From Streptomyces sp. NBC_00510 (GTDB lineage Bacteria > Actinomycetota > Actinomycetes > Streptomycetales > Streptomycetaceae): a stretch of 64,000 bases of DNA. Numbering within the stretch: position 1 is the first letter of the stretch; each line of letters opens with the position of its first letter. The DNA lies in contig CP107851.1 in NCBI GenBank assembly GCA_036013505.1, forward strand, positions 9,224,001 to 9,288,000, read 5' to 3'. The notes beneath the pieces were generated by a model. The model had not been told where the DNA came from. It saw only the letters and a program-made list of their open reading frames with translations, and searched no databases. Below, in pieces: positions 6,985-24,660 of this stretch. The translations under genes were made by a program, and so were the position numbers.

Positions 6985-8007
6985 ATGGGCAAGAAGGGAC
7001 GAGTCTTCGTCCGCGGTCTGACCTCGCAGACGTACGGACTCGGCGAGTTCCGCCGGCAACAGCTCGCCGTCAAGCGGGTCCGCGACGACTCCGTCGTCGT
7101 CGACGACGCGAAGGTGGGCCACTCCGGCGACAGCGAACAGTCCCGCACCTGGTGGCGGGTCGGTCCCGGCGACGAGGAGTTCCTGACCCAGACGATCCAG
7201 GTGCACTTCGTCGAACTCCCCCCGCGGTCCAGCAACCACGGGCACGGCCACCAGAACGAGGCCGCCTTCTACATCCTCCAGGGCCGCGGCTACGAGATCC
7301 ACGACGACCAGCGGTACGACTGGAGCGAGGACGACCTGGTCTTCGTCCACACCGACTCCGTCCACCGCCACTTCAACCCCTACGACGAGACCGCCACCGC
7401 CCTCGTCGTGAAGGCCAAGAGCACCTGGATGTTCATGGGCCTGCTGCAGCAGGGCCGCAGCGGTCCGGTCGAGCGCGAGGCCGAGTTCGGCCCCCGCGAG
7501 GACTGGTCCCGGATCTGGACCCCGGGCGTCGCGGACCGCAAGAAGGTGATCGGCCTCGCGGACACCGTCTGGGAGGACACCCCGCTCGGCAGGGTCCGGG
7601 TGATGTCCTCGCCCGAGCGCACCGACGCCCGCATCTTCTCCGTCGACGCCTTCGAGCTCGACATCCCCGAGGGCGGCCGCTCCGGCAGGTACTGGAAGAT
7701 GGCCGACGAGGTCCTCTACGTCCTCGACGGCGGCGGCTACGCCCTCCAGTGGGAGGTCGAGGCCGAGATCGCCGAGAAGTACTACGCCCGCGTCGCCCTC
7801 GAACCCACCCGGCACGAGATCACCAAGGGCGACACCCTGTACGTGCCGCAGAACCACGTCTGCCAGCTCTTCGCCCACGACGGCACGCCGCTGCGGCTGC
7901 TGTCGGCGCAGAACCGGGTGTTCAAGCACCTCGGCTACGACACGGTCCACTTCCTCGAGGACGCCCCCGGGTACACCCCCGGTCACACCGCGGCGCGGCG
8001 GGACTGA
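6985..8007 (+). CDS. Bicupin protein 1 (putative dioxygenase-like)
   Basis: A 340-residue protein with two cupin barrels. The first keeps a complete metal site: HGHGHQNEAAFYILQG for motif 1 and VHRHFN for motif 2. The second barrel (KMADEVLYVLDGGG, then PQNHVCQLF) has lost the HxH pair and is probably structural. Bicupins of this kind include gentisate-type ring-cleavage dioxygenases but also many unassigned proteins. ATG at 6985 follows AGGAGG. The gene is alone between two strong terminators and has its own regulon operator. One of three bicupins in the regulon; a ring-cleavage role is inference. Confidence 0.8.
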   Translation: MGKKGRVFVRGLTSQTYGLGEFRRQQLAVKRVRDDSVVVDDAKVGHSGDSEQSRTWWRVGPGDEEFLTQTIQVHFVELPPRSSNHGHGHQNEAAFYILQGRGYEIHDDQRYDWSEDDLVFVHTDSVHRHFNPYDETATALVVKAKSTWMFMGLLQQGRSGPVEREAEFGPREDWSRIWTPGVADRKKVIGLADTVWEDTPLGRVRVMSSPERTDARIFSVDAFELDIPEGGRSGRYWKMADEVLYVLDGGGYALQWEVEAEIAEKYYARVALEPTRHEITKGDTLYVPQNHVCQLFAHDGTPLRLLSAQNRVFKHLGYDTVHFLEDAPGYTPGHTAARRD

Positions 8008-8098: not shown

Positions 8099-9718
8099 TC
8101 AGTCCTTCAGGCGCAGGATGATGGGGTTGGTCAGCGCGGCCATGGCACCCCACTGCAGGTCGGGGGCCATCGTGTTGCCCTTGCCGGGCGTGCCGTCGGC
8201 CTTGGGGTGACGCACCTCGGCCCGCACGTACGCTGCGAGCGAGGCGGTGGTGCGCCAGACGACCGTGCCCGACCCGCTCGCGTCCAGCGACTCCTGGTGC
8301 ATCTGGCCCTCGTCGGTGATGAACCGTACGGTGCCGTTCGGGACGCCGGAGACCTCCAGGCGCACGTCGACCGGCGCGTCCGCGCGGAGCCGCAGCGTCT
8401 GCGCGATGCCGGCCTGCCGGCCGCCGCCGGTGGCGGTGAAGGCGAGGGTCACCGAGGAGGACTCGGCGACGTACGTCCGGCCCTCGCGGATGCCGGTCAG
8501 CACGGCCCTGCGGTTGAGGTCCTCGGCGTACACCACCGTCTGCGGCAGGCCGATGACCTGCGGGACGCTGTGGGCATCGCTGTTGCCGACGGCCGGCAGC
8601 CAGTCGTTCCCGGTTCGCATCGCGGTGCCGAGCATGGCGTCCCAGGTGTCGACCGCCGACTCGTCGTCGTAGGTCCAGGGGCCGTTCCACACTTCGACCG
8701 CGTCGGCGTCCTCGTAGCCGAACTTCCACTGGCAGCCCACGTACGGGCAGTACGGGTGGGCCGGGACGACGAGTCCGCCCTGGCGGTGGACCTGGCGGGC
8801 GAAGCGGGAGAACGCGTCGTCGCGGGCCCGGTAGCGCCAGTCGATCCACGTGCCCGGCTCCAGGCCCAGCGCCAGCCAGTGGCCGTTGCGCGTGGTGACC
8901 TCCTCGCCGGTGACGATCAGCAGGTCGGGTCCCGCGTACTCGCCCCACACGCCGTGCGCCGAGGAGGTGTTGTGGTCGGTGGAGACGATGAAGTCCAGGC
9001 CCGCCTGCCGTGCCCCGGCCGCCACCTCCGACGGCAGCCGCTTCCCGTCGGAGTGCACGGTGTGCAGGTGCGCGTCGCCCCGGTACCAGGCCCGGCCGCG
9101 GCCCTTGGCACGCTCGGCGGGATAGGACGGCACGAAGGGCGCCCCCGGGGCGCCGTACCGCAGGGTCACGCTCACCGAGTACTCCATGCCCTGCGGGGCG
9201 ACCTGGTAGGGGCCCAGCACGATGTGCCACGTGCCCTGGTTCACCGGCCCCGGCAGGTAACCGGGCGTGGTGCTGTCGCTGTTGACGACGAACGACGTGC
9301 GCGCCCCGCCCGACCAGCCGCGGAAGCCCCGGCCGCCCAGCGCGGTGCCGCGCTCGTCGAAGACGCCGATGTCGCAGGAGTTGCCCGGCGTGCCGGCCGG
9401 CACCGACGGCTTGTCGTAGGTGTACGAGACCGAGATCTGGTGGACGCCGCGCGGGACCTCGACCGGCAGGTACACGAAGTCGGCCACTCCGGTGCCGAGG
9501 TGACCGGTGATCACCTTGGTGACCTCGCCGCCCTCGGGCGCACCGGCCTCGGCCGCCTCGGCGAAGGTGACGGGCGCGAGCGTCAGGGCGCCCGCCGCGC
9601 CGGCGATCCCGCTCGCCATCAGCAGGGCCCGGCGGCCCAGGCCGGACGTCCCGGCGCCCGTCCCGTGCGGGGTCGGGGACGGTTCGTGACGGTGTTCACG
9701 GGATCCAGGCTGGCACAC
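8099..9718 (-). CDS. Secreted CehA/McbA-like PHP-domain metallohydrolase
   Basis: About 539 residues. The N-terminus is a Tat-type signal (LGRRALLMASGIAGAAG followed by an Ala-rich cleavage region), so export in folded form is likely. Then comes a beta-rich domain (residues ~60-180) and a PHP metallohydrolase domain with DAHLHTVHSDG, STDHNTSSAHG, VTGEEVTT, VPAHPY and GNSDAH, which supply the clustered His/Asp metal ligands of the CehA/McbA family. Relatives hydrolyse phosphoesters or carbamates. Start chosen at the GTG at 9718, which has a spaced GGGAGA; a GTG at 9763 lies directly against its GGAGGA and seems too close. No regulon operator is nearby. Confidence 0.82.
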   Translation of the reverse strand: MCQPGSREHRHEPSPTPHGTGAGTSGLGRRALLMASGIAGAAGALTLAPVTFAEAAEAGAPEGGEVTKVITGHLGTGVADFVYLPVEVPRGVHQISVSYTYDKPSVPAGTPGNSCDIGVFDERGTALGGRGFRGWSGGARTSFVVNSDSTTPGYLPGPVNQGTWHIVLGPYQVAPQGMEYSVSVTLRYGAPGAPFVPSYPAERAKGRGRAWYRGDAHLHTVHSDGKRLPSEVAAGARQAGLDFIVSTDHNTSSAHGVWGEYAGPDLLIVTGEEVTTRNGHWLALGLEPGTWIDWRYRARDDAFSRFARQVHRQGGLVVPAHPYCPYVGCQWKFGYEDADAVEVWNGPWTYDDESAVDTWDAMLGTAMRTGNDWLPAVGNSDAHSVPQVIGLPQTVVYAEDLNRRAVLTGIREGRTYVAESSSVTLAFTATGGGRQAGIAQTLRLRADAPVDVRLEVSGVPNGTVRFITDEGQMHQESLDASGSGTVVWRTTASLAAYVRAEVRHPKADGTPGKGNTMAPDLQWGAMAALTNPIILRLKD

Positions 9719-9847
9719 GGCGGCTCTCCCGAACGGGTGGTTTATGCACGGACTCCGGCACACTCCTCCGCCCGGGTGAACGCCGGGCAGAGCGCGGGGA
9801 ACCCCCGGCGACGCCGGCCTGAATCCCGGACCGCCCGGGACCCCGGC

Positions 9848-10756
9848 TCAGGGGCGCCGCGCCGGCCCCGCCTCCGCCCCGGCCGCCGCCTCCTCCGCGG
9901 CGGCGAGCAGGTCCTCGACGCGCAGCGAGGCGGGGTCACGCGCCGTCTCCAGGCGCAGCGCGAGCGCGCCGTGCACGGTCTTGCGGATCCGCCGCCCGTC
10001 CAGGCCCGTCAGCAGCTTGCCCACCCGCGCGTGCACCGCCGGATCCTCGGCCAGCGGCCGCAACTCGGGCCACTGCGCGGCCAGTGCGCGCAGCGAATCG
10101 GCCACGATGAGCGGCACCACCGACGCGTCCGGCAGCGCGGTGCGCACGACCAGGTCGGCCCGCGACAGAAAGGCGTCGTCCACCGCCTCGGCGAAGTTGG
10201 TCGTCACCACCAGCAGCGTCCCGGGACGCCGGGCCCGCAGCGCGTCCAGGCCGCTGAGGACGGCGTCGGTGGCGCGGTGCACGTCCACCGGATTGGTGTC
10301 GAAGGACGCGGCGTGCCGGCGCACCGCGAGGGCCTCGACCTCGTCGACGAGCACCAAGGTGTGCGGCCGGCGGGCCGCCAGCTCGGGCAGGGTGTCGTGG
10401 AAGAGCCGGGACACCGCCCGCTGGCTCTCGCCGAGCAGTTCGCTGGGGAAGGCGTGCGGATCGACCTCCACCAGGGTGGTCGCGCCGTGCGGCGCGAGCG
10501 TCCGGGCCGCGGCCTGGGCGACGCCCTGCGCGAGCGTCGTCTTGCCCGTGCCCGGAGGCCCGGCGAGCACCACGAGCCCGTGCGGGGCCACGGGGGAGCC
10601 CGCGAGCCGCCGCCCGTGCCGGAGCACGAGGACGGCGGTCGCGAGCAGCCGCTCCTTGACCCGTGGGTCGGTGATCACGGAGTCCCACGGCCCGTCGTGG
10701 TGGTCGGCGGGCAGGGCGTGGATCCCGGCCACGCCGTGCGGCAGTGCGGTGGTCAC
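9848..10756 (-). CDS. TRIP13/Pch2-like AAA+ ATPase
   Basis: A 302-residue AAA+ protein. Walker A is GPPGTGKT (residues 66-73) and Walker B is LVLVDEVE (134-141). The stretch after Walker B (RRHAASFDTNPVDVHRATDA, then VLSGLDAL, then TTNFAEAVDDAFLSRADLVV) follows the eukaryotic and bacterial TRIP13/Pch2 pattern closely, including the extended loop before the second conserved helix and the arginine-finger region. TRIP13 enzymes remodel HORMA-domain proteins, in bacteria mainly in CBASS defence. Here no HORMA protein or nucleotidyltransferase is visible. Instead the gene lies 16 bases after a bicupin at the end of the ABC-importer operon, suggesting it remodels a protein of this catabolic operon. 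It lacks an obvious separate N-terminal substrate-adaptor domain. GTG start. Confidence 0.78.
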   Translation of the reverse strand: MTTALPHGVAGIHALPADHHDGPWDSVITDPRVKERLLATAVLVLRHGRRLAGSPVAPHGLVVLAGPPGTGKTTLAQGVAQAAARTLAPHGATTLVEVDPHAFPSELLGESQRAVSRLFHDTLPELAARRPHTLVLVDEVEALAVRRHAASFDTNPVDVHRATDAVLSGLDALRARRPGTLLVVTTNFAEAVDDAFLSRADLVVRTALPDASVVPLIVADSLRALAAQWPELRPLAEDPAVHARVGKLLTGLDGRRIRKTVHGALALRLETARDPASLRVEDLLAAAEEAAAGAEAGPARRP

Positions 10757-10772
10757 CGCGTGCGCTCCCCTC

Positions 10773-11840
10773 TCACGGCCAGGTGGGGCGTTCGAGCGCC
10801 GGCCACTCGACGGTCGAGGGGTCGCCGGCCTGCGCGTCGCGGATGTGGTCCGGCGGCTCCTCGAAGAGGACCAGCGGATCGCACAGCGCCCGCATCGTCT
10901 CCAGCAGGCTGTCGAACATGTGGATCCGTACGACCTTCGCCGTCCGCTCCGGATCGGTGTTGACGTGCTGGTGCCACAGGAAGTGGTCGACGACGATGAT
11001 GTCGCCCTTCTTCCACGGGTGCCGCTCCCCGCCCTCGGGTTCGGTGCCCAGGTAGCTCTCGCCGCTGCCCTCCACGACGTACAGCCACGCCTCGCCCGGG
11101 TGGCGGTGCATCGACTGGGCGCGGCCCGGGCCGATCTCGAACATCGCCATCGTGATGCCGGACGCCTGGTAGCCGATGGCCCGGTCCAGGAGGAAGGTGG
11201 TGCGGGTGCCGCGCGGGGTGTTGCGCAGCTCCAGCTCGTCCCAGGCGGTGTGCAGCCGCCCGGAGCGGCGGGCCTCCTGGTCGCGGGCGAGCCGGCGCAG
11301 GCGGGCGGCGTACGGGTCGGCGCCGTCGTGGCCGGGGGAGTACGGCGGGCGCGGCGGCAGTTCGGCGACGGGGGTGTGCCCCGCGTCCTCGATGACGGCC
11401 ATGCCCATGGTCTCCAGCAGCGGTTCGCTGGAGAAGGTCAGGTAACGCGCCGTCGTGCCGCCGTCGTTGCCGCTGCGGTGCCAGGACCAGGCGGGCAGGT
11501 GGAGGGAGTCGCCGGGGCCCCAGTCGACGCGCTCGCCGTCGATCTCGGTCCAGCCGTGCCCGGCGACGACGAACACCATGGCGTCCCAGGAGTGCCGGTG
11601 CACGGTGGTCGTCGTCCCCGGCTCGAACTCGTGGGCGAGGGCGTCCATGGTGCGGGTGGGTCGGTCGCCGTCGGCGCCGGTGTAGACGCCGACCCGGCTG
11701 CCCCGTGCGGTGGGGTGCATCGTGACGTCATCCAGGGCGACGACGGTGCGGTGGTTGTCCCGCCATCGCTCGATGAACTCGGCCCGGCGGCGTTTCTGGA
11801 CGTGGTAATGGGTGACCCCGGTGGTGGTACGGGTACTCAA
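10773..11840 (-). CDS. Bicupin protein 2 (both metal sites intact)
   Basis: A 355-residue bicupin. Both barrels keep canonical metal ligands: VHRHSWD and WHRSGN in the first, MHRHPGEAWLYVVEG and HQHVN in the second. Of the three bicupins here it is the only one with two complete sites, making it the best candidate for a metal-dependent oxygenase or isomerase on the pathway. The N-terminus (THYHVQKRRRAEFIERWR) resembles a helical extension. The start is a TTG at 11840 with GGGAGG upstream. Coupled by a 16-base gap to the TRIP13-like ATPase and separated by 81 bases from the MFS gene before it. Confidence 0.8.
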   Translation of the reverse strand: MSTRTTTGVTHYHVQKRRRAEFIERWRDNHRTVVALDDVTMHPTARGSRVGVYTGADGDRPTRTMDALAHEFEPGTTTTVHRHSWDAMVFVVAGHGWTEIDGERVDWGPGDSLHLPAWSWHRSGNDGGTTARYLTFSSEPLLETMGMAVIEDAGHTPVAELPPRPPYSPGHDGADPYAARLRRLARDQEARRSGRLHTAWDELELRNTPRGTRTTFLLDRAIGYQASGITMAMFEIGPGRAQSMHRHPGEAWLYVVEGSGESYLGTEPEGGERHPWKKGDIIVVDHFLWHQHVNTDPERTAKVVRIHMFDSLLETMRALCDPLVLFEEPPDHIRDAQAGDPSTVEWPALERPTWP

Positions 11841-11921: not shown

Positions 11922-13142
11922 TCAGCCGGTGGCCCCGGCCACGCTGTACTCGCGGACGGTACGGCTGCGTGCCGCGCTGAGCCCGGAGGCGAGGGCGGGC
12001 ACGAGTCCGCCGACGGTGAGCGCGGCCACCGGCCCGACGGCGCCGGCGAAGGCGCCCATCGCCGTGTCACCGAGCGCGGGTCCGCCCCGGGAGCACATCT
12101 GGTAGATCGCCGAGACCCGGCCGCGCAGCTCGTCCGGGGTCTCCAACTGCACCGCGGCGTGGCGGACCGTGGTCGCCACCGCGTCCGCGGCGCCGAGCGC
12201 GACCGCCGCCAGCAGCGCCACGGGGAACACCCGTGCCTGGGCGAGGCCCACGACGGCCAGCCCGTACGTGGCCGTGCCCCACAGCACGATGCGACCCGAC
12301 CGGGCCGTGCGCACCAGCCGGAACACCCACGCCGACCCGATCAGAGCGCCCGCCGAGGGGGCGGCGGACAGCAGCCCGTACCCGGTGGCGCCGACGTGCA
12401 GGACGTCCGCGGCGAAGGCGGGCAGCAGCACCCGGTACGCGCCGAAGACGGTGGCCGCCAGGTCCAGCCCCATCAACTGCCAGACCACCGGCCGCCCGGA
12501 GACGTGGCCCACGCCCTCCCGCAGGCTCTCCAGCAGGGGCCGCCGCCTGCCGTCGACCGCGAGCGGCGGCACCCGCAGCAGCGCGAGGACGACGACGAGC
12601 ACGGCGTACGTCACGGCGTCGAAGACGTACACCGCCCCCGGTCCGCCCAGCGCGATCAGCACACCGGCGAAGGCGGGCCCGACCAGGATCGCCAGTTCCC
12701 GCGAGGGGTTGAGCAGGGCGAAGGCGTCGACCAGGCGGTCGCGCGGCACCATCGCGGGGATGAGCGCCTGCCGCGCCGGCTGGTCGAAGGTCGCCGCGGC
12801 CGTGGCGAGCAGCGACGACACGACGACGGTCCCCACGGTCGCGGCACCGGTCAGGGTGAGCGCCGCCAGGCCCGCCGAGACCAGCAGCGCCAGCGCCTGC
12901 GTCGCCTGGAGCAGCCTGCGCCGGTCGAGGCGGTCGGCGTAGATCCCGCCGACGGGGGAGAGCAGCAGCAGCGCCACGGCCTGGGCCAGACCCACCAGGC
13001 CCACCTGCGCGGTGGACCCGGTGAGCTCGTACACCTGGTAGAGGTTGGCGGCGACGGCGCCCCTCGTCCCGATCTGGGAGAGGACGACGCCGCCCCAGTA
13101 GAGGTCGAAGTCGCGGTTGCGCAGTACCTCGGGTATCGCCAT
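11922..13142 (-). CDS. MFS transporter (MFS_3 / enterobactin-exporter-like)
   Basis: A 406-residue major facilitator with about 12 hydrophobic helices. The loop motif between helices 2 and 3 is GGIYADRLDRRRLLQATQ, and TFDQPARQALIPAMVPRD is the characteristic cytoplasmic stretch of the MFS_3 group, which are usually proton-driven exporters. The start ATG is three bases after the ABC ATPase stop, so it is co-translated with the importer. Having an exporter-type MFS inside an import operon suggests efflux of a toxic intermediate or of excess substrate; that is inference. Confidence 0.85.
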   Translation of the reverse strand: MAIPEVLRNRDFDLYWGGVVLSQIGTRGAVAANLYQVYELTGSTAQVGLVGLAQAVALLLLSPVGGIYADRLDRRRLLQATQALALLVSAGLAALTLTGAATVGTVVVSSLLATAAATFDQPARQALIPAMVPRDRLVDAFALLNPSRELAILVGPAFAGVLIALGGPGAVYVFDAVTYAVLVVVLALLRVPPLAVDGRRRPLLESLREGVGHVSGRPVVWQLMGLDLAATVFGAYRVLLPAFAADVLHVGATGYGLLSAAPSAGALIGSAWVFRLVRTARSGRIVLWGTATYGLAVVGLAQARVFPVALLAAVALGAADAVATTVRHAAVQLETPDELRGRVSAIYQMCSRGGPALGDTAMGAFAGAVGPVAALTVGGLVPALASGLSAARSRTVREYSVAGATG

Positions 13143-13145
13143 CGG

Positions 13146-14282
13146 TCAGTCGACCGGGACCAGGGTGACCTTGTCCGGGGCGATGGAGAAGTGGACCTCG
13201 GTGCCCGGCGGGATCGACAGGTTGGGGTTGGAGCGGTTGCGGATCTCCAGGTCCCCCACCCCGACGATGTGGTCGACGACGTCCCCCATGAACGCGCGGG
13301 TCAGCACCCGGCCGGACAGCTCGTTGGGGACGTCGCCGCGCCGGTCGGTGGACAGGTCGACGCACTCCGGGCGGATCGAGATCAGCACCGTGTCCCCCAC
13401 CGAGGGGACCCGCTCCACCTTCCGGGCGACCAGCCTGCCCGGCGCGGTGTCGACCACGACCTCGTCGCCGTCCACGCCCACCACCTTCGCCTCGATGAAG
13501 TTGGACGTGCCGATGAACTCGGCGACGAAGCGGGTGGCCGGCTTGGTGTAGATCTCGCGGGGCTTGCCGATCTGCTCGATGCGGCCCTCGTTCATCACCG
13601 CGATCCGGTTCGACATCACCAGCGCCTCGGACTGGTCGTGGGTCACGTAGATCGCGGTGAGGTTCAGCTCGCGCTGCAGCCGCTTCAGCTCGAAGCGCAT
13701 GGACTCGCGGAGCTTGGCGTCCAGGTTGGACAGCGGTTCGTCCAGCAGCATCAGCTCGGGCCGGGTCACCAGGGCGCGGGCCAGCGCCAGGCGCTGCTGC
13801 TGGCCGCCGGAGAGCTTGGTGGCCGGCCGCCCGGCGTACGCGCCCAGCTCGATGACCTCGAGGACCTGCTGCACCCGCTCCTCGATCTCCTGCCGTCCCG
13901 GGCGCTTCGCGCGCGGCATGACCTCCAGCGGGAACGAGACGTTCTTGAAGACCGTCATGTGCGGCCAGATGGCGTACGACTGGAAGACCATGCCGAAGCC
14001 GCGGCGGTTGGCGCGCAGGTTGACGCCCTGCCGCGCGTCGAACAGCACCCGGCCGCCGAGGGTGACCCGGCCCTCGGTCGGCCGCTCCAGGCCCGCGACC
14101 GAGCGCAGCGTCGTCGTCTTGCCGCACCCGGAGGGGCCGAGCAGCGTGAACAGTTCGCCGTCGTGGACCTCGAAGTCGACCCCGCCGACCGCGTAGACCC
14201 GCGTGCCCTCGGCGGCCTTGCGGCGGGAGGCGCGTCCCCCGGTTTCCTCGTAGCTCTTCTTGAGGGATTCGACCGTCAGCAT
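13146..14282 (-). CDS. ABC transporter ATP-binding protein (PotA/FbpC-like)
   Basis: A 378-residue importer ATPase. Walker A GPSGCGKTT, Q-loop with FQSYAIWPHM, signature LSGGQQQRLALARAL, Walker B LMLLDEPLSNLDAKLR and switch THDQSEAL are all present. The C-terminal ~110 residues form the TOBE-type beta domain found in the polyamine/iron/sugar importer class. ATG at 14282 is preceded by a short gap to the permease gene. It powers the permease encoded just upstream and presumably serves both binding lipoproteins of the operon. Confidence 0.93.
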   Translation of the reverse strand: MLTVESLKKSYEETGGRASRRKAAEGTRVYAVGGVDFEVHDGELFTLLGPSGCGKTTTLRSVAGLERPTEGRVTLGGRVLFDARQGVNLRANRRGFGMVFQSYAIWPHMTVFKNVSFPLEVMPRAKRPGRQEIEERVQQVLEVIELGAYAGRPATKLSGGQQQRLALARALVTRPELMLLDEPLSNLDAKLRESMRFELKRLQRELNLTAIYVTHDQSEALVMSNRIAVMNEGRIEQIGKPREIYTKPATRFVAEFIGTSNFIEAKVVGVDGDEVVVDTAPGRLVARKVERVPSVGDTVLISIRPECVDLSTDRRGDVPNELSGRVLTRAFMGDVVDHIVGVGDLEIRNRSNPNLSIPPGTEVHFSIAPDKVTLVPVD

Positions 14283-14299: not shown

Positions 14300-16105
14300 C
14301 TAGTTCGCGGAGTCGCCCTGCAGCCCGAAGCGGGCGCCGAGACGGTAGGCAATGGAGACGAGCAGGACGAGGAGCACGACCATGCAGACGCCGAGCGCGG
14401 CGAGCGTGGTGAACTGGCCGTTCTCGAACTGCTCCCAGATCAGCACCGACAGCACTTCCTTGCCCGGGCTGTACAGCAGGATGGTGCTGGACAACTCCCG
14501 GAAGGAGACCACCAGGATGTAGACCCAGCCGGCGAGGATGCCGCTGCTCATCAGCGGCAGCAGCACCCGCCGGAAGGTCTGGAACCACGAGGCCCCGGAC
14601 ACCGCCGCGGACTCCTCCAGTTCCGGCGACATCTGGGCCATCGCCGACGACGCGTAGCGCATGCCGTAGGGCAGGTAGCGCGTGCAGTACGACACCAGCA
14701 GGATGAGCAGCGTGCCGTAGATCGGCAGCGGCATCCGCAGGTAGACGAAGGACAGCGCGAGGCCCAGGACCAGGCCGGGGATGACGATGGGCGTGAAGGC
14801 CAGCAGGTCCAGCAGCCGCCGGCCCGGCGCCTTGGTGCGCAGCACGACCCAGGAGACGATCGCGGTGAGCACCATGACCACGGTCGCGGCGCCCACCCCG
14901 ACGATGAGCGAGTTCTTCAGCGCCGTGAACGCCAGCGGCATGTCGGCGACCTCGCGGTAGTTGTCCAGCGTCATCGAGCCGAACGTCTTCCGGGAGGGAG
15001 CGGTGTAGTACTTGAGCAGGCTCGCGTAGACCAGGACGGCGACCGGCAGGACGACCGTGAGCAGGAAGTAGCCGATCACGGCGGCGCCCACGAACGGCCG
15101 GGCGCGCCCCAGTTCCACCGGGCGGGGCCGGAACGCCTTGCCGGTGACCGTCTGGAAGTTGCGCGAGGAGCGCTGCAGCCAGCCGGAGACCAGCACCCCC
15201 GCCGCGGCGATGACCAGCAGGCCGATCGCGTAGGCCCCGGCGGCACCGTAGTCGGCGGGGTAGGAGCGCAGCACGAAGTAGATCCGGCTGGTGAAGACGT
15301 AGATGCCGTTCTGCAGTCCGAGCAGGCCGGGCACCTCGAAGCTCTCCAGCGACTGCACGAACATCAGCAGCGCCGCCGAGATCATCGCCGGGCGCAGCAG
15401 CGGGACGGTGACGCGCCGCAGCACGGTGAGCCGGCCGGCCCCCGACATGGCGGCCGACTCCTCCAGCGAGGGGTCCATCGCCCGGAAGGCGGCCACCATC
15501 AGCAGGAACGCGACGGGGGCGAGGTGCAGCCCCTGCACCCAGATCATGCCCCACACGCTGAAGATGTTGATCGGCGTGGTGCCGAACAGGGGCTTGAACA
15601 CCAGGGAGTTGAGCACGCCGCTCGACGGGTCGCCGAGGAAGATCCAGGAGGTGGCGTAGAGGATGCCGGGCACGATGAGCGGTACCAGCGAGGCGGCGAA
15701 GAACAGCCCCTTGAACGGGGTGTCGGTGCGCACCTGGACGTAGGCGAGCACGGTGCCGAGCACGAGGGCGAGCGCGGCCGAGCCGAAGGCGAACCACAGC
15801 GAGTTCAGCATCATCGAGCCGGCCTGCGAGTTGCCCCCGTAGGCACGGGAGAAGGCCGAGACGGACACCCCCGCGCCGTCGGCGCTCAGGAAGGTGTCGT
15901 GGACCAGGTAGCCCAGCGGGACGACGGCGAGGTAGCCGACGATCACGACGGCCGCGCCGACCAGCAGGCCCTGCAGGGACAGCGGACGCCTCAGCAGCCG
16001 GGCGAGGCGGCCCGGTCCGGCGGTGCCGGCCGGCTCGGGGACGGTGTCCGTCCCGGGGGCCCGGTCGTCGTCCCGGGACGCGGCGGGTGCGGGTACGAGG
16101 GTCAT
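14300..16105 (-). CDS. ABC transporter permease, fused double domain
   Basis: A 601-residue membrane protein with two binding-protein-dependent permease domains in one chain, about 12 helices in all. Each half carries an EAA-loop motif for contact with the ATPase: EESAAMSGAGRLTVLRRVTV and EESAAVSGASWFQTFRRVLL. This fused layout is characteristic of the Fe(III)/thiamine/phosphonate-type importer class (FbpB/SfuB-like). It sits between the binding-protein genes and the ATPase gene with gaps of only a few bases. The substrate of this class is not fixed; the genomic context points to an aromatic or organic acid rather than iron. Confidence 0.92.
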   Translation of the reverse strand: MTLVPAPAASRDDDRAPGTDTVPEPAGTAGPGRLARLLRRPLSLQGLLVGAAVVIVGYLAVVPLGYLVHDTFLSADGAGVSVSAFSRAYGGNSQAGSMMLNSLWFAFGSAALALVLGTVLAYVQVRTDTPFKGLFFAASLVPLIVPGILYATSWIFLGDPSSGVLNSLVFKPLFGTTPINIFSVWGMIWVQGLHLAPVAFLLMVAAFRAMDPSLEESAAMSGAGRLTVLRRVTVPLLRPAMISAALLMFVQSLESFEVPGLLGLQNGIYVFTSRIYFVLRSYPADYGAAGAYAIGLLVIAAAGVLVSGWLQRSSRNFQTVTGKAFRPRPVELGRARPFVGAAVIGYFLLTVVLPVAVLVYASLLKYYTAPSRKTFGSMTLDNYREVADMPLAFTALKNSLIVGVGAATVVMVLTAIVSWVVLRTKAPGRRLLDLLAFTPIVIPGLVLGLALSFVYLRMPLPIYGTLLILLVSYCTRYLPYGMRYASSAMAQMSPELEESAAVSGASWFQTFRRVLLPLMSSGILAGWVYILVVSFRELSSTILLYSPGKEVLSVLIWEQFENGQFTTLAALGVCMVVLLVLLVSIAYRLGARFGLQGDSAN

Positions 16106-16111
16106 CGGCGG

Positions 16112-17221
16112 TCAGTTCCCCACCGTGGCGGCGCCGCGCAGCAGCGCGTCGTACTTCTTGTCCCAGCTGCCGTCGTCCTTGCTCAGTCCCTCGACGTCGA
16201 AGGGGACGAGGGTGAGGCCGTCGAGGCTCTTGTCGCCGGGCACCTTGGTGGAGGGGGTCAGGCCCAGCTTGACCAGCTCCTTCTGCCCGTCGGTGAGCAG
16301 CCAGTGGTAGAACAGCCAGGCGGCGGCGGGGTGCTGGGCACCCTTGATCATGCCGACGCCGTTGGGCCGGGCGAACGCGGGGATCTTCGACACGCCGCCC
16401 TGCGGGAGGTAGGTGACGGGGGCGCCCTCCTGGGTGGCCCGGTAGGTGATGTAGGTGTAGTTCATCGCCTCCATCGGGGTCTGGCCGGCGGTGAGGAACT
16501 GCATCATCGTGGTGTGGCCCTTGGCGACCTTGGAGTTGGCCGCGATCTGCTTCCAGAGCGTGTCGACCTCGGCCTGGGTCTTGCCGTGCGCCAGCCAGTA
16601 CTTGGTGACGTTCTCGAACCAGTCGCTGTCGCTGAGCTCCAGGGTGATCTTGCCCTTGTACTTGGGCCGGGCCAGGTCCTCCCAGCTCTGCGGTTCGTCG
16701 GCGGGCTTGATCAGCTCGGTGTTCCAGGCGGGCTGGAAGACGTTGAGCCGGCTGGCCGTCCACTGGTCGAACGTGCCGGCCTTCTCCACCTTGTCGAGGG
16801 CGGAGCCGTTGAACTTGACGAGGTAGCCGTTGTCGGCGAGCGCGGTCATCTCGAGGAAGTTGGTCTCGACGGCGTCGGCGCCCGGCCGGTTGGCCTTCTC
16901 CTCCTGGAGCGTGCGCTGCAGCACCGTCTCGGAGTTGCCGCGGAAGACGCTGACGTGGATGCCGTACTTCTTCTCGAAGGCCTTGCCTATGGGGGTGGCG
17001 ATGTCCGCCGTCATCGAGGTGTAGAGGGAGAGCACTCTCCCTTCCTTCCCCGCGAGTTCCCTGGCCTTGGCGACCTGCTGCTCCTTGGGCAGCCCGGCGA
17101 TCTGGGAGTAGACGGACTCGGCCTGGCTGTTGGAAGCGCCCGGGACGGCGCCGCCGCACCCTGTGGTGACGGCCGCGACCAGCAGTCCGGCCACGGCGAG
17201 AGTCGAGTTGCGGGTCCTCAT
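16112..17221 (-). CDS. Solute-binding lipoprotein 2 of the importer
   Basis: A 369-residue extracellular binding protein. The signal peptide ends in a lipobox (VTTGC), so it is a membrane-anchored lipoprotein. The mature part follows the FbpA/family-1 pattern (GRVLSLYTSMTADIATPIGK, then VFRGNSETVLQRTLQEEKA). It is paralogous to the next gene upstream: both contain NSETVLQR, a PNGVG segment and the KYDALLRG / AYDALLRG ending. The two proteins have clearly diverged, so they probably present different but related ligands to one permease. Confidence 0.9.
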   Translation of the reverse strand: MRTRNSTLAVAGLLVAAVTTGCGGAVPGASNSQAESVYSQIAGLPKEQQVAKARELAGKEGRVLSLYTSMTADIATPIGKAFEKKYGIHVSVFRGNSETVLQRTLQEEKANRPGADAVETNFLEMTALADNGYLVKFNGSALDKVEKAGTFDQWTASRLNVFQPAWNTELIKPADEPQSWEDLARPKYKGKITLELSDSDWFENVTKYWLAHGKTQAEVDTLWKQIAANSKVAKGHTTMMQFLTAGQTPMEAMNYTYITYRATQEGAPVTYLPQGGVSKIPAFARPNGVGMIKGAQHPAAAWLFYHWLLTDGQKELVKLGLTPSTKVPGDKSLDGLTLVPFDVEGLSKDDGSWDKKYDALLRGAATVGN

Positions 17222-17269
17222 GTGGAGCTCTCCTGTATCGAGGGTGCGAGAGGGGGTGTGGGTGTGCGG

Positions 17270-18379
17270 TCAGCCGGTCGCGGGGACGCCGCGCAGCAGC
17301 GCGTCGTAGGCGTCGTTCCACTTCTTGCTGTCGGTCTCGGCGGTCTTGGAGAGGCTGTACGTGGTGGTGCCCGGCGGGATCGGGTCCTTGAAGCCCTCGA
17401 CGGCCTTCGCGGCCGGGATGCGCAGGGACCCGGCGATGACCTTCTGGCCCTCGCTGAGCACCCAGTCGGTCCACAGCAGCGCCGCGGCGGGGTGGCGCGG
17501 GTGGGCCATCAGTCCCACGCCGTTGGGCCGCAGGATCACCGGTTCGACGACCGGCTTGTACGTCACGGGCGCGCCCTTGCGGGCGGCCTTGTCGATCGTG
17601 TGGGAGTAGACGGACAGGGCCACGGAGAACTGGCCCGCGCTGAGCAGTTCGCCCTGCACGGTGTGGCCCTTGGTGACCTTGACGTTGGCGGCGATGCGCC
17701 GGAAGAGGTCGTCGACGGCGGAGGGGCTCATGCCCTTCTCGTCGGTGAGGTAGGTGTGCATCGACGCGTACCAGTCCCAGTCGCCGATCTCGACGGAGAG
17801 CCTGCCCTTCCACCGGGGGTCGGCGAGGTCGGCGAAGTCCTTCGGCTCCTGGCCGGCCGGGACCTGGTCGGTGTTCCAGCCGACGACGAAGGCGTTGAAG
17901 CGCTCGGCGGTCCAGCCGCCGAACTCCTTTGCGGCGTCCCTCAGACCCTGCTCGGCCGGCCCGTCGTAGGGCGTGAGCAGGTGCTGGGAGTCCAGGGCGC
18001 GCAGCTCCAGGTCGTTGGTGTCCACGACGTCGTTCTGCGGCTTGCCCGCCTGGTTCTCCTGGAGCGCCCGCTGCAGGACGGTCTCGGAGTTGGCGCGGAA
18101 CGCCCGGACCTTGATGGCGGGGTAGGCCTTCTCGAAGCCGTCGACGAGGTCCTGGATGTCGGTGTTGGAGGTGTAGAGGTCCAGCACCCCGCCCTCGGAG
18201 CGGGCGTCGGCGAGCAGCTTCTCGGTGCGCCGGCTGCCGGTCAGCGCGGCGTAGTCGGCGTAGGGGTCGGCCCCTTCGGGTGCGGGGCCGCCCGCCCCCG
18301 TCGTGGTGGGCGCGGAGCCGCAGCCGGCGAGGACGAGGCCGGCGGCCAGGAGGCCGGCGGTGAGGGCACCATGACGCAT
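17270..18379 (-). CDS. Solute-binding lipoprotein 1 of the importer
   Basis: A 369-residue binding lipoprotein with lipobox VLAGC and the same fold as its downstream paralogue (GGVLDLYTSNTDIQDLVDGF, then FRANSETVLQRALQENQAGK). It is the first gene of the importer operon; its start is 250 bases downstream of operator C at 18629, leaving a long leader. The operon appears to run SBP1, SBP2, permease, ATPase, MFS, bicupin 2, TRIP13-like ATPase, about 8.5 kb. Confidence 0.9.
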   Translation of the reverse strand: MRHGALTAGLLAAGLVLAGCGSAPTTTGAGGPAPEGADPYADYAALTGSRRTEKLLADARSEGGVLDLYTSNTDIQDLVDGFEKAYPAIKVRAFRANSETVLQRALQENQAGKPQNDVVDTNDLELRALDSQHLLTPYDGPAEQGLRDAAKEFGGWTAERFNAFVVGWNTDQVPAGQEPKDFADLADPRWKGRLSVEIGDWDWYASMHTYLTDEKGMSPSAVDDLFRRIAANVKVTKGHTVQGELLSAGQFSVALSVYSHTIDKAARKGAPVTYKPVVEPVILRPNGVGLMAHPRHPAAALLWTDWVLSEGQKVIAGSLRIPAAKAVEGFKDPIPPGTTTYSLSKTAETDSKKWNDAYDALLRGVPATG

Positions 18380-18694: not shown

Positions 18695-20296
18695 TCAAGC
18701 GTCGGCAAAGCCCCCCTGGTAGGGGTCCTCGCCGAACACCAGGGACTTGATCGTCACCGGCACCGTGCCGGACGGGTGGCGCATCCGCCCGATGTCGATC
18801 CAGTCGAAGTCCCGCAGGTTCAGCCCGTCGACGACCAGCACGTCCACGGCCACGTCGAGTTCGTCGCGCAGCAGCCGGCCGAGCGTCATGGCGACGTCCC
18901 CGTCGAGCATCACGTACACCGGCAGTCCGCGGTCGATGCGTTCCGCCAGGCCGTCGCGGATGCCGCGGGCGAAGGGCAGCAGCCGGTCGTGGCCCGGCGG
19001 CCCGCTCCACGACATCGCGAGGGCGACGTCGGCGTCGTCGCGCCCCGCGTCCAGCGCGACCAGCCGGCGGCGGACCGCGGCGGCGACCGCCTCGGGGTCG
19101 ACGGTCTCCCCGAGCTCGTACACCGGCCTGACCACCTGCAGGTTGCGGCGTGGCAGCAGCGCACCGGGATCGGTGACGCACCCGGTGTTGCCGCTGAGCT
19201 GGACGCTGTACTCCGAGGCCCCGAGCGCCGTGGCGCGGATGCACTCGCCGGGCGGCAGCAGCGGGAAGGGCAGCGCGCCGTCCTCGACCCGGCGGCGCAG
19301 CGCACGGCCGAGCGGGCGGCCGAGGTCGCCGAACCCCCGCCGCTCCCGGTCGTACACGTACTCCGCGACGCCGCCGGAGAACATCACCCCGTCGAAGGGA
19401 CCGGCGTCCGGCAGGGGATCGGTCAGGTACAGCCGGCCGGCGTCCGGGGGAGGCGGATCGCCGGGAGCGGTCAGCAGGGAGACGAGGGCGTCGGCCATCG
19501 TCTCCGCCACCCGCTCGGACTCGGCGTCCTGCACGGTGTCGCCGAGTTCCCAGCCGTACCCCGCGCGGGCCGCGTGCCGGCGGCCCGCCGGATCGAGCCG
19601 TACGAGACGGCCCCGTTCGTCGGTCACCTGCAGCCGCCCGCCGACGTGCACGGCGGCGGTGGCCACCACCTGCCCGCGGTCGACCACGGCGAGCTTGGTC
19701 GTCCCGCCGCCGATGTCGACGTTGAGGATGCGCTGTCCGCGGTCGTAGGAGGCCTGCGCCGCGCCCGATCCGTACGCGGCGAGCATGGCCTCCATGTGGT
19801 GGCCCGCCGTCGCGGTCACCAGTTCGCCGCCGCGCTCGGCCAGCACGCCCGCGACGGCCTCCGCGTTGCGCCGGCGCAGCGCCTCGCCGGTGAGGATCAC
19901 CACCCCGGTGTCGACGTCCGCGGGGTCCACGGCCGCGTCGTGGTAGGCCTTGTCGATGATCGCGCCGAGCGCACCGGCGTCGATGTGCTCGGCGCTCGCG
20001 TACGGGGTCAGTTCGACGGGGGACCGGTACACGGTGTCCCTGCGGACCACCAGGTACCGGCTCGTCAGGTCCTCCCCGATCCGGCGCAGGTGCAGCCGGG
20101 AGAAGACCACCTGGGTGCCCGACGACCCGATGTCCATCCCGACGCTGTGCAGCGTGACGTTGTCCTGCCGCCAGATCGGGTTGTCCTCCAGGGCGCCGGC
20201 CACGTCGTCGTCGTGCACGTGGTCGTGGGCGGGGGTGTGCGCCGAGTGGACCGTGCGCACCCCGTCGTCGTCGCTGTGGTCACCGGAGTGCCGCAC
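18695..20296 (-). CDS. EutA-like reactivating-factor family protein (orphan)
   Basis: A 533-residue protein of the EutA family, the actin-like ATPases that reactivate adenosylcobalamin-dependent ethanolamine ammonia-lyase. The nucleotide fold is visible: GMDIGSSGTQVVFSRLHL (phosphate 1), NVDIGGGTTKLAVVD (phosphate 2), and FSGGVAEYVYDRE (adenosine). The first ~35 residues add a His/Asp-rich stretch (AHDHVHDDD) that may bind metal. No EutB, EutC, cobalamin enzyme or microcompartment gene is in the window. It follows bicupin 3 with a 28-base gap and shares operator D. Its client is therefore unknown; it may act on a bicupin or on a cobalamin enzyme elsewhere. GTG start with AAGGAG. Confidence 0.82.
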   Translation of the reverse strand: MRHSGDHSDDDGVRTVHSAHTPAHDHVHDDDVAGALEDNPIWRQDNVTLHSVGMDIGSSGTQVVFSRLHLRRIGEDLTSRYLVVRRDTVYRSPVELTPYASAEHIDAGALGAIIDKAYHDAAVDPADVDTGVVILTGEALRRRNAEAVAGVLAERGGELVTATAGHHMEAMLAAYGSGAAQASYDRGQRILNVDIGGGTTKLAVVDRGQVVATAAVHVGGRLQVTDERGRLVRLDPAGRRHAARAGYGWELGDTVQDAESERVAETMADALVSLLTAPGDPPPPDAGRLYLTDPLPDAGPFDGVMFSGGVAEYVYDRERRGFGDLGRPLGRALRRRVEDGALPFPLLPPGECIRATALGASEYSVQLSGNTGCVTDPGALLPRRNLQVVRPVYELGETVDPEAVAAAVRRRLVALDAGRDDADVALAMSWSGPPGHDRLLPFARGIRDGLAERIDRGLPVYVMLDGDVAMTLGRLLRDELDVAVDVLVVDGLNLRDFDWIDIGRMRHPSGTVPVTIKSLVFGEDPYQGGFADA

Positions 20297-20324: not shown

Positions 20325-21461
20325 TCAGGCGGAGACGGATTCCCCGGTCGGCGCGGGCGGCAGCGTGGCGATCTCCGCCTCGTACACGGCGTCCATCCGT
20401 GGCTCCATGCCGTGCTTGGACAGTGCCTCGCGGAAGGTCTCGCGCACGAAGGGCGACTCGTCGGCGTAGTCGATCTGGTCGCCGCCGATGCGCCGGCTGA
20501 TCCAGGCCTTGGGCACGCCCTGGGCGTTGCGCACCGAGACCACCTCGTGCTTGAAGGCCAGGTAGCGGGCGGGTTCCGGGCCGGTGTTGAAGTGCTGGTG
20601 GAACCACATGTTGGGCGGCACGATCAGCGAGCCGGGACCCCACTCGTAGCGCCGCGGCTCCTCGCCCTCGGGCCACATCAGGCTGTAGCCCTCGCCGGAC
20701 AGGATGATCACGTGGGCGCCTGGGCCGTGCCGGTGGCCCTTCTTGTAGGTGGCGGTCGGGAACTGCGATATGTGGCTGTTCATCGAGCCCTTGGCCATCG
20801 CGAAGCGGATGTGACCGCCGCCCGCACCGCGCTCCTTCGCCTCGACCAGCGGCAGGTTGACCGCGTCCGCGACGAAGTTGGTGTCCAGCAGCAGGCCCTT
20901 CTGCTCGCCCTTGGGGGAGAAGTAGTCCGGCTCGCCGGCGAAGCGGTCGGTGAAGTCCCTGGGGGTGTGGAAGACGAAGTCGGCGTCCCCGTAGAGGTTG
21001 ATCACCGGCGGCAGGTTCGTGGAGGAGACGAAGCGTGCGGTCTTCCGGCCGGAGCCGTTGAAGTGCTGGTGGTGGGCGTTGAGCGGGATCGCGAAGATCG
21101 ACCCGCCCTGCCACTCGAAGGTGACCTCGGCGCCGGCGTCGTTCCAGACCCGTGTCGAGCCCTGTCCGTCGAGGACGAGGATCATCTCCTCGAACAGCTG
21201 CCGCTGGGGCGCCAGCCTCCCGCCCGCCGGGATCTCGCACACGTAGCAGTCGTTCGAGGTCCGGGTGGCCTCGTGGTTGATGAACACGCCGCGCCCGCCG
21301 CGCCGTTCCCACGGCTTCAGCTCGACCGTGCGCAGGTCGGGCACGTAGTGGGCGGCGATGATGTCCAGCCCTTCGGCGGCGACCCAGCGGGTGTAGGGGG
21401 ATTCCTTCTCCGTGGCGAACTTGGCCGCCAGTTTCTCGTTGACGATCGCGTCCTTGGCCAT
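20325..21461 (-). CDS. Bicupin protein 3 (EutA-linked)
   Basis: A 378-residue bicupin. In the first barrel the HxH pair is replaced by Gln (LAPQRQLFEEMILVLDG), though the HHQHFN motif remains. The second barrel keeps HRH and FHQHFN, but the usual Glu position is occupied by His (GHRHGPGAHVIILSG). So the metal site is altered in domain 1 and unusual in domain 2. Similar cupins are sometimes labelled as ethanolamine ammonia-lyase activating proteins, consistent with its EutA-like neighbour. It is the first gene of a two-gene operon under operator D. Confidence 0.8.
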   Translation of the reverse strand: MAKDAIVNEKLAAKFATEKESPYTRWVAAEGLDIIAAHYVPDLRTVELKPWERRGGRGVFINHEATRTSNDCYVCEIPAGGRLAPQRQLFEEMILVLDGQGSTRVWNDAGAEVTFEWQGGSIFAIPLNAHHQHFNGSGRKTARFVSSTNLPPVINLYGDADFVFHTPRDFTDRFAGEPDYFSPKGEQKGLLLDTNFVADAVNLPLVEAKERGAGGGHIRFAMAKGSMNSHISQFPTATYKKGHRHGPGAHVIILSGEGYSLMWPEGEEPRRYEWGPGSLIVPPNMWFHQHFNTGPEPARYLAFKHEVVSVRNAQGVPKAWISRRIGGDQIDYADESPFVRETFREALSKHGMEPRMDAVYEAEIATLPPAPTGESVSA

Positions 21462-24159: not shown

Positions 24160-24660
24160 ATGGCGGCGCCCACCGTGTACCCGAGCGAGAGCGCGCGGGC
24201 GGCCTCCGCCGGCGAGGCCCGGTTCAGGATCCGCGTGCCCATCGCGCCGGCCCGCGCCGCCCGCGTCATCGGGCTGGACGGCCGGGCGACCGCCGTCGCC
24301 CGCCGGCTGGCCGAACACCCCTGGGCCCACGCCCGGTTCTACACCGGCGGCGGCCCCCGCCCGGCCGGGACCGACGACCCCCTGCTGCACGCCCTCGACG
24401 GCACGCCCGCGTCGCTGCCCGCGGTCCTGGACGGCAGCGACGTCGTCGTCGTCCTCGCCACCGAGGACGGCGGCCGGGCCACGGCCGCGACCATCGGCCG
24501 CTTCTGCTGGCAGCACGGCATCACCACCGCGGGCGTCGTCCTCGGCGACGGCTTCGAGGCCGACGACGCCGTCGCGGCGCTGCGCCCCTACGCGCGGGTG
24601 CTGCTGCTCTCCGCCGACGAGGGCGACGTCTTCGAACTGCTCACCGCACTCAGGGTCTAG
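24160..24660 (+). CDS. Unknown protein of the Rieske operon
   Basis: A 166-residue protein I do not recognise. It begins one base after the oxygenase stop and ends 11 bases before the PanB-like gene, so it belongs to the operon. The sequence suggests an alpha/beta fold: AARVIGLDGRATAVARRLAE looks like a first strand-turn-helix, followed by hydrophobic strands VVVVLATED, TTAGVVLGDG and RVLLLSADEG. It lacks clear metal or cofactor motifs and has no signal peptide. A small Rossmann-like accessory or regulatory protein for the oxygenase or PanB-like enzyme is possible, but this is only a guess. Confidence 0.6.
   Translation: MAAPTVYPSESARAASAGEARFRIRVPIAPARAARVIGLDGRATAVARRLAEHPWAHARFYTGGGPRPAGTDDPLLHALDGTPASLPAVLDGSDVVVVLATEDGGRATAATIGRFCWQHGITTAGVVLGDGFEADDAVAALRPYARVLLLSADEGDVFELLTALRV

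Follow-up and report, generated by a model that had tools for sequence, protein, structure and literature searches.

A TRIP13/Pch2-family ATPase paired with a bicupin in actinobacteria: a HORMA-free branch and its proposed role in cupin remodelling

The 64,000-nucleotide stretch of the Streptomyces sp. NBC_00510 genome analysed here (the window) is part of a complete 10.1-Mb chromosome, and carries on its reverse strand two adjacent genes that form the subject of this study. The first, cupB (10773..11840), encodes a 355-residue bicupin resembling gentisate and aminosalicylate dioxygenases, and the second (9848..10756) encodes a 302-residue AAA+ ATPase of the TRIP13/Pch2 family that is devoid of the N-terminal HORMA-adaptor domain. 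As read from the sequence, cupB starts with a TTG codon preceded by GGGAGG, while the ATPase starts with GTG preceded by GAGGGGAG, the Shine-Dalgarno-like element held in the 16-bp gap between the two genes (10757..10772, reverse strand). Comparison of this gap across loci revealed a 4-nt overlap between the two genes in many relatives. Further along the same strand lie an MFS exporter (11922..13142), the ATPase of an ABC importer (13146..14282), and an ABC permease with two solute-binding proteins (14300..18379), and a second bicupin, cupA, is found on the forward strand (6985..8007). A CehA/McbA-family PHP metallohydrolase (8099-9763, reverse strand) lies directly downstream of the ATPase in the window and is beside the pair in 0 of the 36 relative loci described below.

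TRIP13/Pch2 is the remodeller of HORMA proteins in cell-division checkpoints and in bacterial anti-virus defence, and the family has been defined in the literature through its HORMA clients. It is near certain that the ATPase belongs to this family. Among solved structures, the best matches by sequence are human and worm Pch2-TRIP13 (98 bits, E 5e-27), followed by the next AAA protein, Cdc48, at 74 bits, and a profile search of structures gave 180-187 bits for TRIP13 against 146 bits for Cdc48. The PADLOC TRIP13 model PDLC00915 scores the ATPase at 310 bits and genuine CBASS Cap6 proteins at 353-473 bits. The AlphaFold model (pLDDT 86) retrieved TRIP13/PCH-2 structures at ranks 1-6 (Z 20.9-22.5), with E. 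coli and human TRIP13 at the top and other AAA proteins close behind at 20.4. In a phylogenetic tree, the cupin-linked, CBASS and eukaryotic TRIP13 proteins grouped at 100/99 against other AAA proteins, an early tree with long-branch outgroups having been set aside. The first-pass annotation, made from the letters alone, had called the protein TRIP13-like rather than generic AAA and had proposed phylogeny as the check; sequence ranking, PADLOC, the tree and the predicted structure all bear out that call, and a generic AAA ATPase is ruled out by the first three. The gene is single-copy in the complete genome, the next-best matches being ordinary AAA proteins at about 30%.

Alignment showed all motifs to be intact: GPPGTGKT and LVDEVE (Walker A and B), TTN (sensor 1), AFLSRAD (arginine finger) and GRRIRK (sensor 2). 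With eukaryotic TRIP13/PCH2, its best PDB match by sequence and by Foldseek, the ATPase shares the core, the sensor and arginine-finger signature (AFLSRAD/AFVDRAD) and the conserved pore loop 2 proline at about 27% identity, but it lacks the p31comet/HORMA-docking domain, a HORMA client and the pore-loop aromatics. The core begins after only about 20 residues, and the match begins at residue 126 of human TRIP13. CBASS Cap6 proteins, of about 300 residues with the same AAA+ motifs, likewise lack the eukaryotic N-terminal domain, and the annotated ones are 43-46% identical to the ATPase over about 90% of the length (typically about 45%, covering 92% of the ATPase). The two groups are split by pore loop 1 (10412..10465, reverse strand; residues 98-115, VDPHAFPSELLGESQRAV), which reads A[FL]P-x-[ED]-x-LGE[ST] in cupin-paired members versus SxxxG[KQ][TS]Q in CBASS members (FPSELLGES here versus LTSSAMGKT in Cap6). 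Within the tree, 21 close cupin-linked ATPases form one clade (99/98), the support for which falls to 75/64 once the more distant genomes G183 and G584 are added, and a topology in which one CBASS sequence joins the cupin-linked clade is not rejected (AU p 0.255). One recruitment and two are therefore both possible, and a single proven clade of all cupin-linked ATPases was rejected as a claim.

The known bacterial setting of such ATPases is type III CBASS, in which the Cap6/TRIP13 gene is accompanied by genes for HORMA proteins, a CD-NTase and an effector, as on plasmids of Sulfitobacter, Methylobacterium, Rhizobium, Bradyrhizobium and Rhodococcus. A tblastn search of plasmids with the ATPase returned 13 records, each covering at least 86% of the query, 12 of them at 43-46% identity and the archaeal one at 31%. 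Seven of the eight plasmid or archaeal records examined adjoin an annotated CBASS cyclase, several have an annotated HORMA protein, and the archaeal homologue adjoins a HORMA gene. The ATPase of the window has none of these companions and has a bicupin instead. The Pfam bacterial HORMA families 1 and 2 (PF18138 and PF18173) gave no hit at E<=1 across the complete genome, while family 2 does detect the CBASS HORMAs gathered for comparison. A HORMA profile of our own, built from seven CBASS HORMAs, detected no HORMA in the window, the 36 loci or ten ATPase-holding genomes, whereas archaeal and rhizobial control records matched; a weak second-HORMA match in the window (E 0.87) was read as noise. 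Thus the absence of a HORMA partner, as the first-pass annotation had it, held up against Pfam profiles, our own profile and positive controls, and the linked HORMA gene in relatives that would have spoken against its reading was found by profile in none of the 36 loci. Overall, profiles that could miss a very diverged HORMA detected no HORMA client in nine further ATPase genomes or in the complete one.

These observations bear directly on the idea that the gene is a stray or remnant anti-phage part, a Cap6 gene left over from CBASS. The PADLOC call of TRIP13 speaks for such an origin, but the complete genome holds no HORMA, the pore loop is unlike that of CBASS members, and the gene persists in catabolic surroundings in many families. 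Further, no operon of CD-NTase, HORMA and effector genes was seen, the identified neighbours being cupins, transporters and catabolic enzymes, and a search of phage records found none that carries the ATPase. We regard a CBASS remnant as scarcely credible, and it was set aside on the conserved context and the lack of a HORMA.

What the ATPase does keep is cupB. A genome scan identified 36 actinobacterial loci with a close relative of the ATPase (54-91% identity), and in all 36 cupB lies immediately upstream on the same strand. These loci span at least nine families, namely Streptomycetaceae, Micrococcaceae, Micromonosporaceae, Geodermatophilaceae, Pseudonocardiaceae, Nocardioidaceae, Mycobacteriaceae, Streptosporangiaceae and Thermomonosporaceae. 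Among 249 genomes of the window's own family, cupB and the ATPase occur in the same five, a co-occurrence with a chance probability of 1.3e-10 on the assumption, not true here, of independent genomes. In a class sample of 394 genomes, all five with a cupB of at least 77% identity hold an adjacent ATPase. In G183, a distant actinobacterium (60% and 53%), the pair is again adjacent but in convergent orientation, so that closeness is kept there without a shared transcript. Moreover, the two genes have decayed together in Streptomyces carpinensis (L034, 7608-8757): a joint deletion affects the two pseudogenes, cupB contains a stop and the Walker A motif is degraded, while the neighbours of the decayed pair match at 78-92% over almost their full length. 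The proposed coupling of the ATPase to a bicupin is thus confirmed by the 36 loci and the co-occurrence search, and it is near certain that this coupling is obligate.

The first-pass annotation had gone further, placing the ATPase in a metabolic operon with the bicupin, an MFS transporter and an ABC importer. Here the bicupin pairing stands, but across the 36 loci the MFS and ABC genes proved movable. The MFS exporter, the ABC importer genes, cupA, a GntR gene and an aldolase are often nearby, in variable order and strand, or missing, with cupA present in many but not all loci. A conserved five-gene operon including the MFS and ABC importer genes was accordingly ruled out, and since these neighbours and the second cupin shift or drop out, the conserved unit is the ATPase-cupB pair alone. 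In the window and in relatives, the genes near cupB include a 3,4-dihydroxyphthalate-decarboxylase-like aldolase, a LigXa-like Rieske oxygenase, a 4-carboxy-4-hydroxy-2-oxoadipate aldolase, an amidohydrolase, TPP enzymes and an aldehyde dehydrogenase. Between the LigXa-like Rieske oxygenase and a PanB-like enzyme, the window also holds a 166-residue protein without a Pfam or NCBIfam match (24160-24660, forward strand), which recurs in other loci (cluster c23).

CupB itself has two Cupin_2 stretches, and the HxH...H pattern is retained in both domains, the putative metal-site histidines being H81, H83 and H121 in one and H245, H247, H286 and H290 in the other, H81 nearly invariant and the rest invariant. 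Its nearest named relatives are gentisate 1,2-dioxygenase and 5-aminosalicylate 1,2-dioxygenase, with which it shares the HRH...WH metal-site pattern, although the similarity is weak and of partial length (72 bits versus a cut-off of 650). CupB likely functions in ring cleavage during aromatic-acid breakdown. Unlike those dioxygenases, it possesses an extra N-terminal tail and helix as well as an ATPase partner.

This tail, a threonine-rich stretch of ten residues (MSTRTTTGVT; 11811..11840, reverse strand), is the proposed handle for the pore of the ATPase. Paired cupBs open with M-x-T-R-T-T-T-x-V-T-H-Y-H-V-Q-K, with T5 and T7 invariant (n=22), and in the AlphaFold model residues 1-10 have a pLDDT of about 40 (predicted disordered) and are followed by a helix at 11-28. 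The HORMA partners of CBASS ATPases start in a like style, for example MSTSTSTTTYTRTHTATHMSD and MSATFTSTYSRTHTAKYVSDK, with a threonine-rich tail and then a helix. The motif [TS][RHKY]T.[TS] within the first 30 residues occurs in 21 of 23 paired cupBs, in 7/7 CBASS HORMAs and in 2 of 423 background proteins, counts that refer to a motif defined after the sequences had been inspected and that are not independent, because the HORMAs and the cupBs are each a homologous set. It is absent from the unpaired cupBs in the alignment (0/3) and from the second small proteins of CBASS HORMA operons (0/6), and five unpaired cupB relatives from three genomes (45-58%) are all without TRTTT. In G584, a TRIP13-like ATPase (51%) lies right behind two single-cupin genes (L094, 8841-10875), the first of which has ...GVATRTKVHPYEA (ATRTK) near its start, while the ATPase-free cupBs of the same genome are without such a tail. 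The G584 locus, with an ABC importer, represents a split-cupin version of the pair. In the cupB tree, the tail/ATPase state switches only about once among bicupins, and gain and loss of the two are indistinguishable since cupA is too distant to root the tree.

TRIP13 is known to thread REV7 into its pore by the N-terminus (PMC7923543) and requires the N-terminus of Mad2, although which end of Mad2 is pulled has been disputed (PMC5717197). Because TRIP13 threads HORMA N-termini, cupB is proposed to bear a handle of the same kind, and on comparison of the tails it probably does. Taken together with the pairing, this suggests that the ATPase probably remodels cupB, for reactivation or for metal loading. 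The first-pass annotation had suggested that the ATPase perhaps matures or recycles a cupin metalloenzyme, a proposal strengthened by the tail common to paired cupins and HORMA substrates and by the bicupin-EutA pair described below.

The client could of course be a different protein, encoded inside or outside the cluster, such as a TPP-dependent enzyme or a diverged HORMA, with cupB merely a neighbour. Neighbouring ATPases can indeed work on different members of a shared pathway, and a HORMA might escape a profile search; against this, cupB alone occurs in every locus, the co-occurrence is perfect in the family sample, the change in the tail follows the ATPase, and cupB and the ATPase decay jointly. 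Another client therefore appears very improbable.

We consider it moderately probable that the ATPase serves cupB as a dedicated remodeller, which would pull on the N-terminal tail so that the metal site is restored or completed. The ATPase hexamer would dock on cupB, and the threonine-rich tail (M-x-T-R-T-T-T-x-V-T) would enter the central pore, as HORMA N-termini do with TRIP13. ATP would then drive the unwinding of the helix next to the tail, and the dioxygenase, locally opened, would be restored by expulsion of a dead-end ligand or an oxidised metal, or else loaded with metal. A point against such threading is that the pore aromatics of human TRIP13, W221 and F222, are replaced by Leu/Leu in the ATPase, though CBASS members are also without them. 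The proposed arrangement resembles that of the Rubisco activases CbbX and Rca, in which an AAA+ ring encoded beside the enzyme gene restores the enzyme by tugging (PMC5385338); the activases are, however, of a different AAA+ family (the CbbX model gives 15.5 bits on the ATPase) and act on a different enzyme.

A parallel to this arrangement exists in the window itself. A third bicupin (20325-21461, reverse strand) is directly followed by a homologue of EutA (18695-20296, reverse strand; PF06277, 357 bits), and the cupin-EutA order is kept in all eight places with both genes in view (the window and seven loci). EutA is named for reactivating ethanolamine ammonia-lyase, and is likewise an ATPase-type reactivase encoded next to its enzyme, but its fold is actin/Hsp70-like rather than AAA+, with no homology to TRIP13. 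Since no gene for ethanolamine ammonia-lyase turned up in the neighbourhoods examined around the bicupin-EutA pair, the homologue may serve the cupin. Two bicupins of one region, each with its own ATPase of unrelated fold, favour a requirement common to both, for instance repair or metal loading.

Metal loading is the core of an alternative in which the ATPase acts as a maturase, opening each new cupB once to admit the correct metal (Fe, Ni or Co) instead of repairing it. Most cupins are generally believed to acquire their metal unaided by an ATPase, and the cupB-ATPase pair itself has no consistently associated metal-handling gene, which leaves a maturase unlikely, though by no means far-fetched. 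In its favour are the strict one-to-one pairing and the translational overlap, together with the related bicupin-EutA pair of Phyllobacterium (L098), which lies beside a Rieske oxygenase, an aldolase, a Ni/Co transporter and NikR. A Streptomyces quercetinase, also a cupin, can accept nickel and other metals (PMC4416304).

Alternatively, the ATPase might dismantle assemblies that cupB forms with further copies of itself, with cupA or with a regulator, thereby setting flux or specificity. This is improbable given that many pair loci are without cupA in the DNA examined (for example, L010, L012, L014 and L017) and that no regulator gene is constant, even though cupA is often near. The model for it is TRIP13, which takes apart the mitotic checkpoint complex and Shieldin and for which action on multi-protein assemblies is documented (PMC7923543).

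Under the favoured reading of a dedicated cupB remodeller, the ATPase represents a HORMA-free variant of a known family for which, from sequence comparison, a new type of client is proposed; the pairing without a HORMA suggests that TRIP13 motors can also service metabolic enzymes. No description of a TRIP13-cupin pair was found in the literature searched, which omits most subscription papers; the one paper that mentions both is, judged by its title, unrelated. It is tempting to generalise, if only tentatively, that TRIP13 motors are not HORMA-specific, that the actinobacterial branch is a dedicated cupin-dioxygenase activase acting through a HORMA-like, threonine-rich handle at the N-terminus of the enzyme, and that this pair, together with cupin-EutA, points to a class of cupin dioxygenases whose need for ATP-driven service has been met independently by AAA+ and actin-fold ATPases. 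A strictly conserved branch of this kind would show that client choice is set by pore loop 1 together with a short tail at the client's N-terminus, would bear on the origin of checkpoint and immune remodellers, and would offer a simple two-protein system for threading studies. It would also suggest that the ring-cleaving dioxygenases of catabolic clusters receive an ATP-dependent upkeep that has gone unrecognised. On the practical side, defence-gene scanners label a metabolic ATPase as TRIP13, and the PADLOC score of 310 bits for the gene at 9848-10756 of the window is one such source of false defence annotation.
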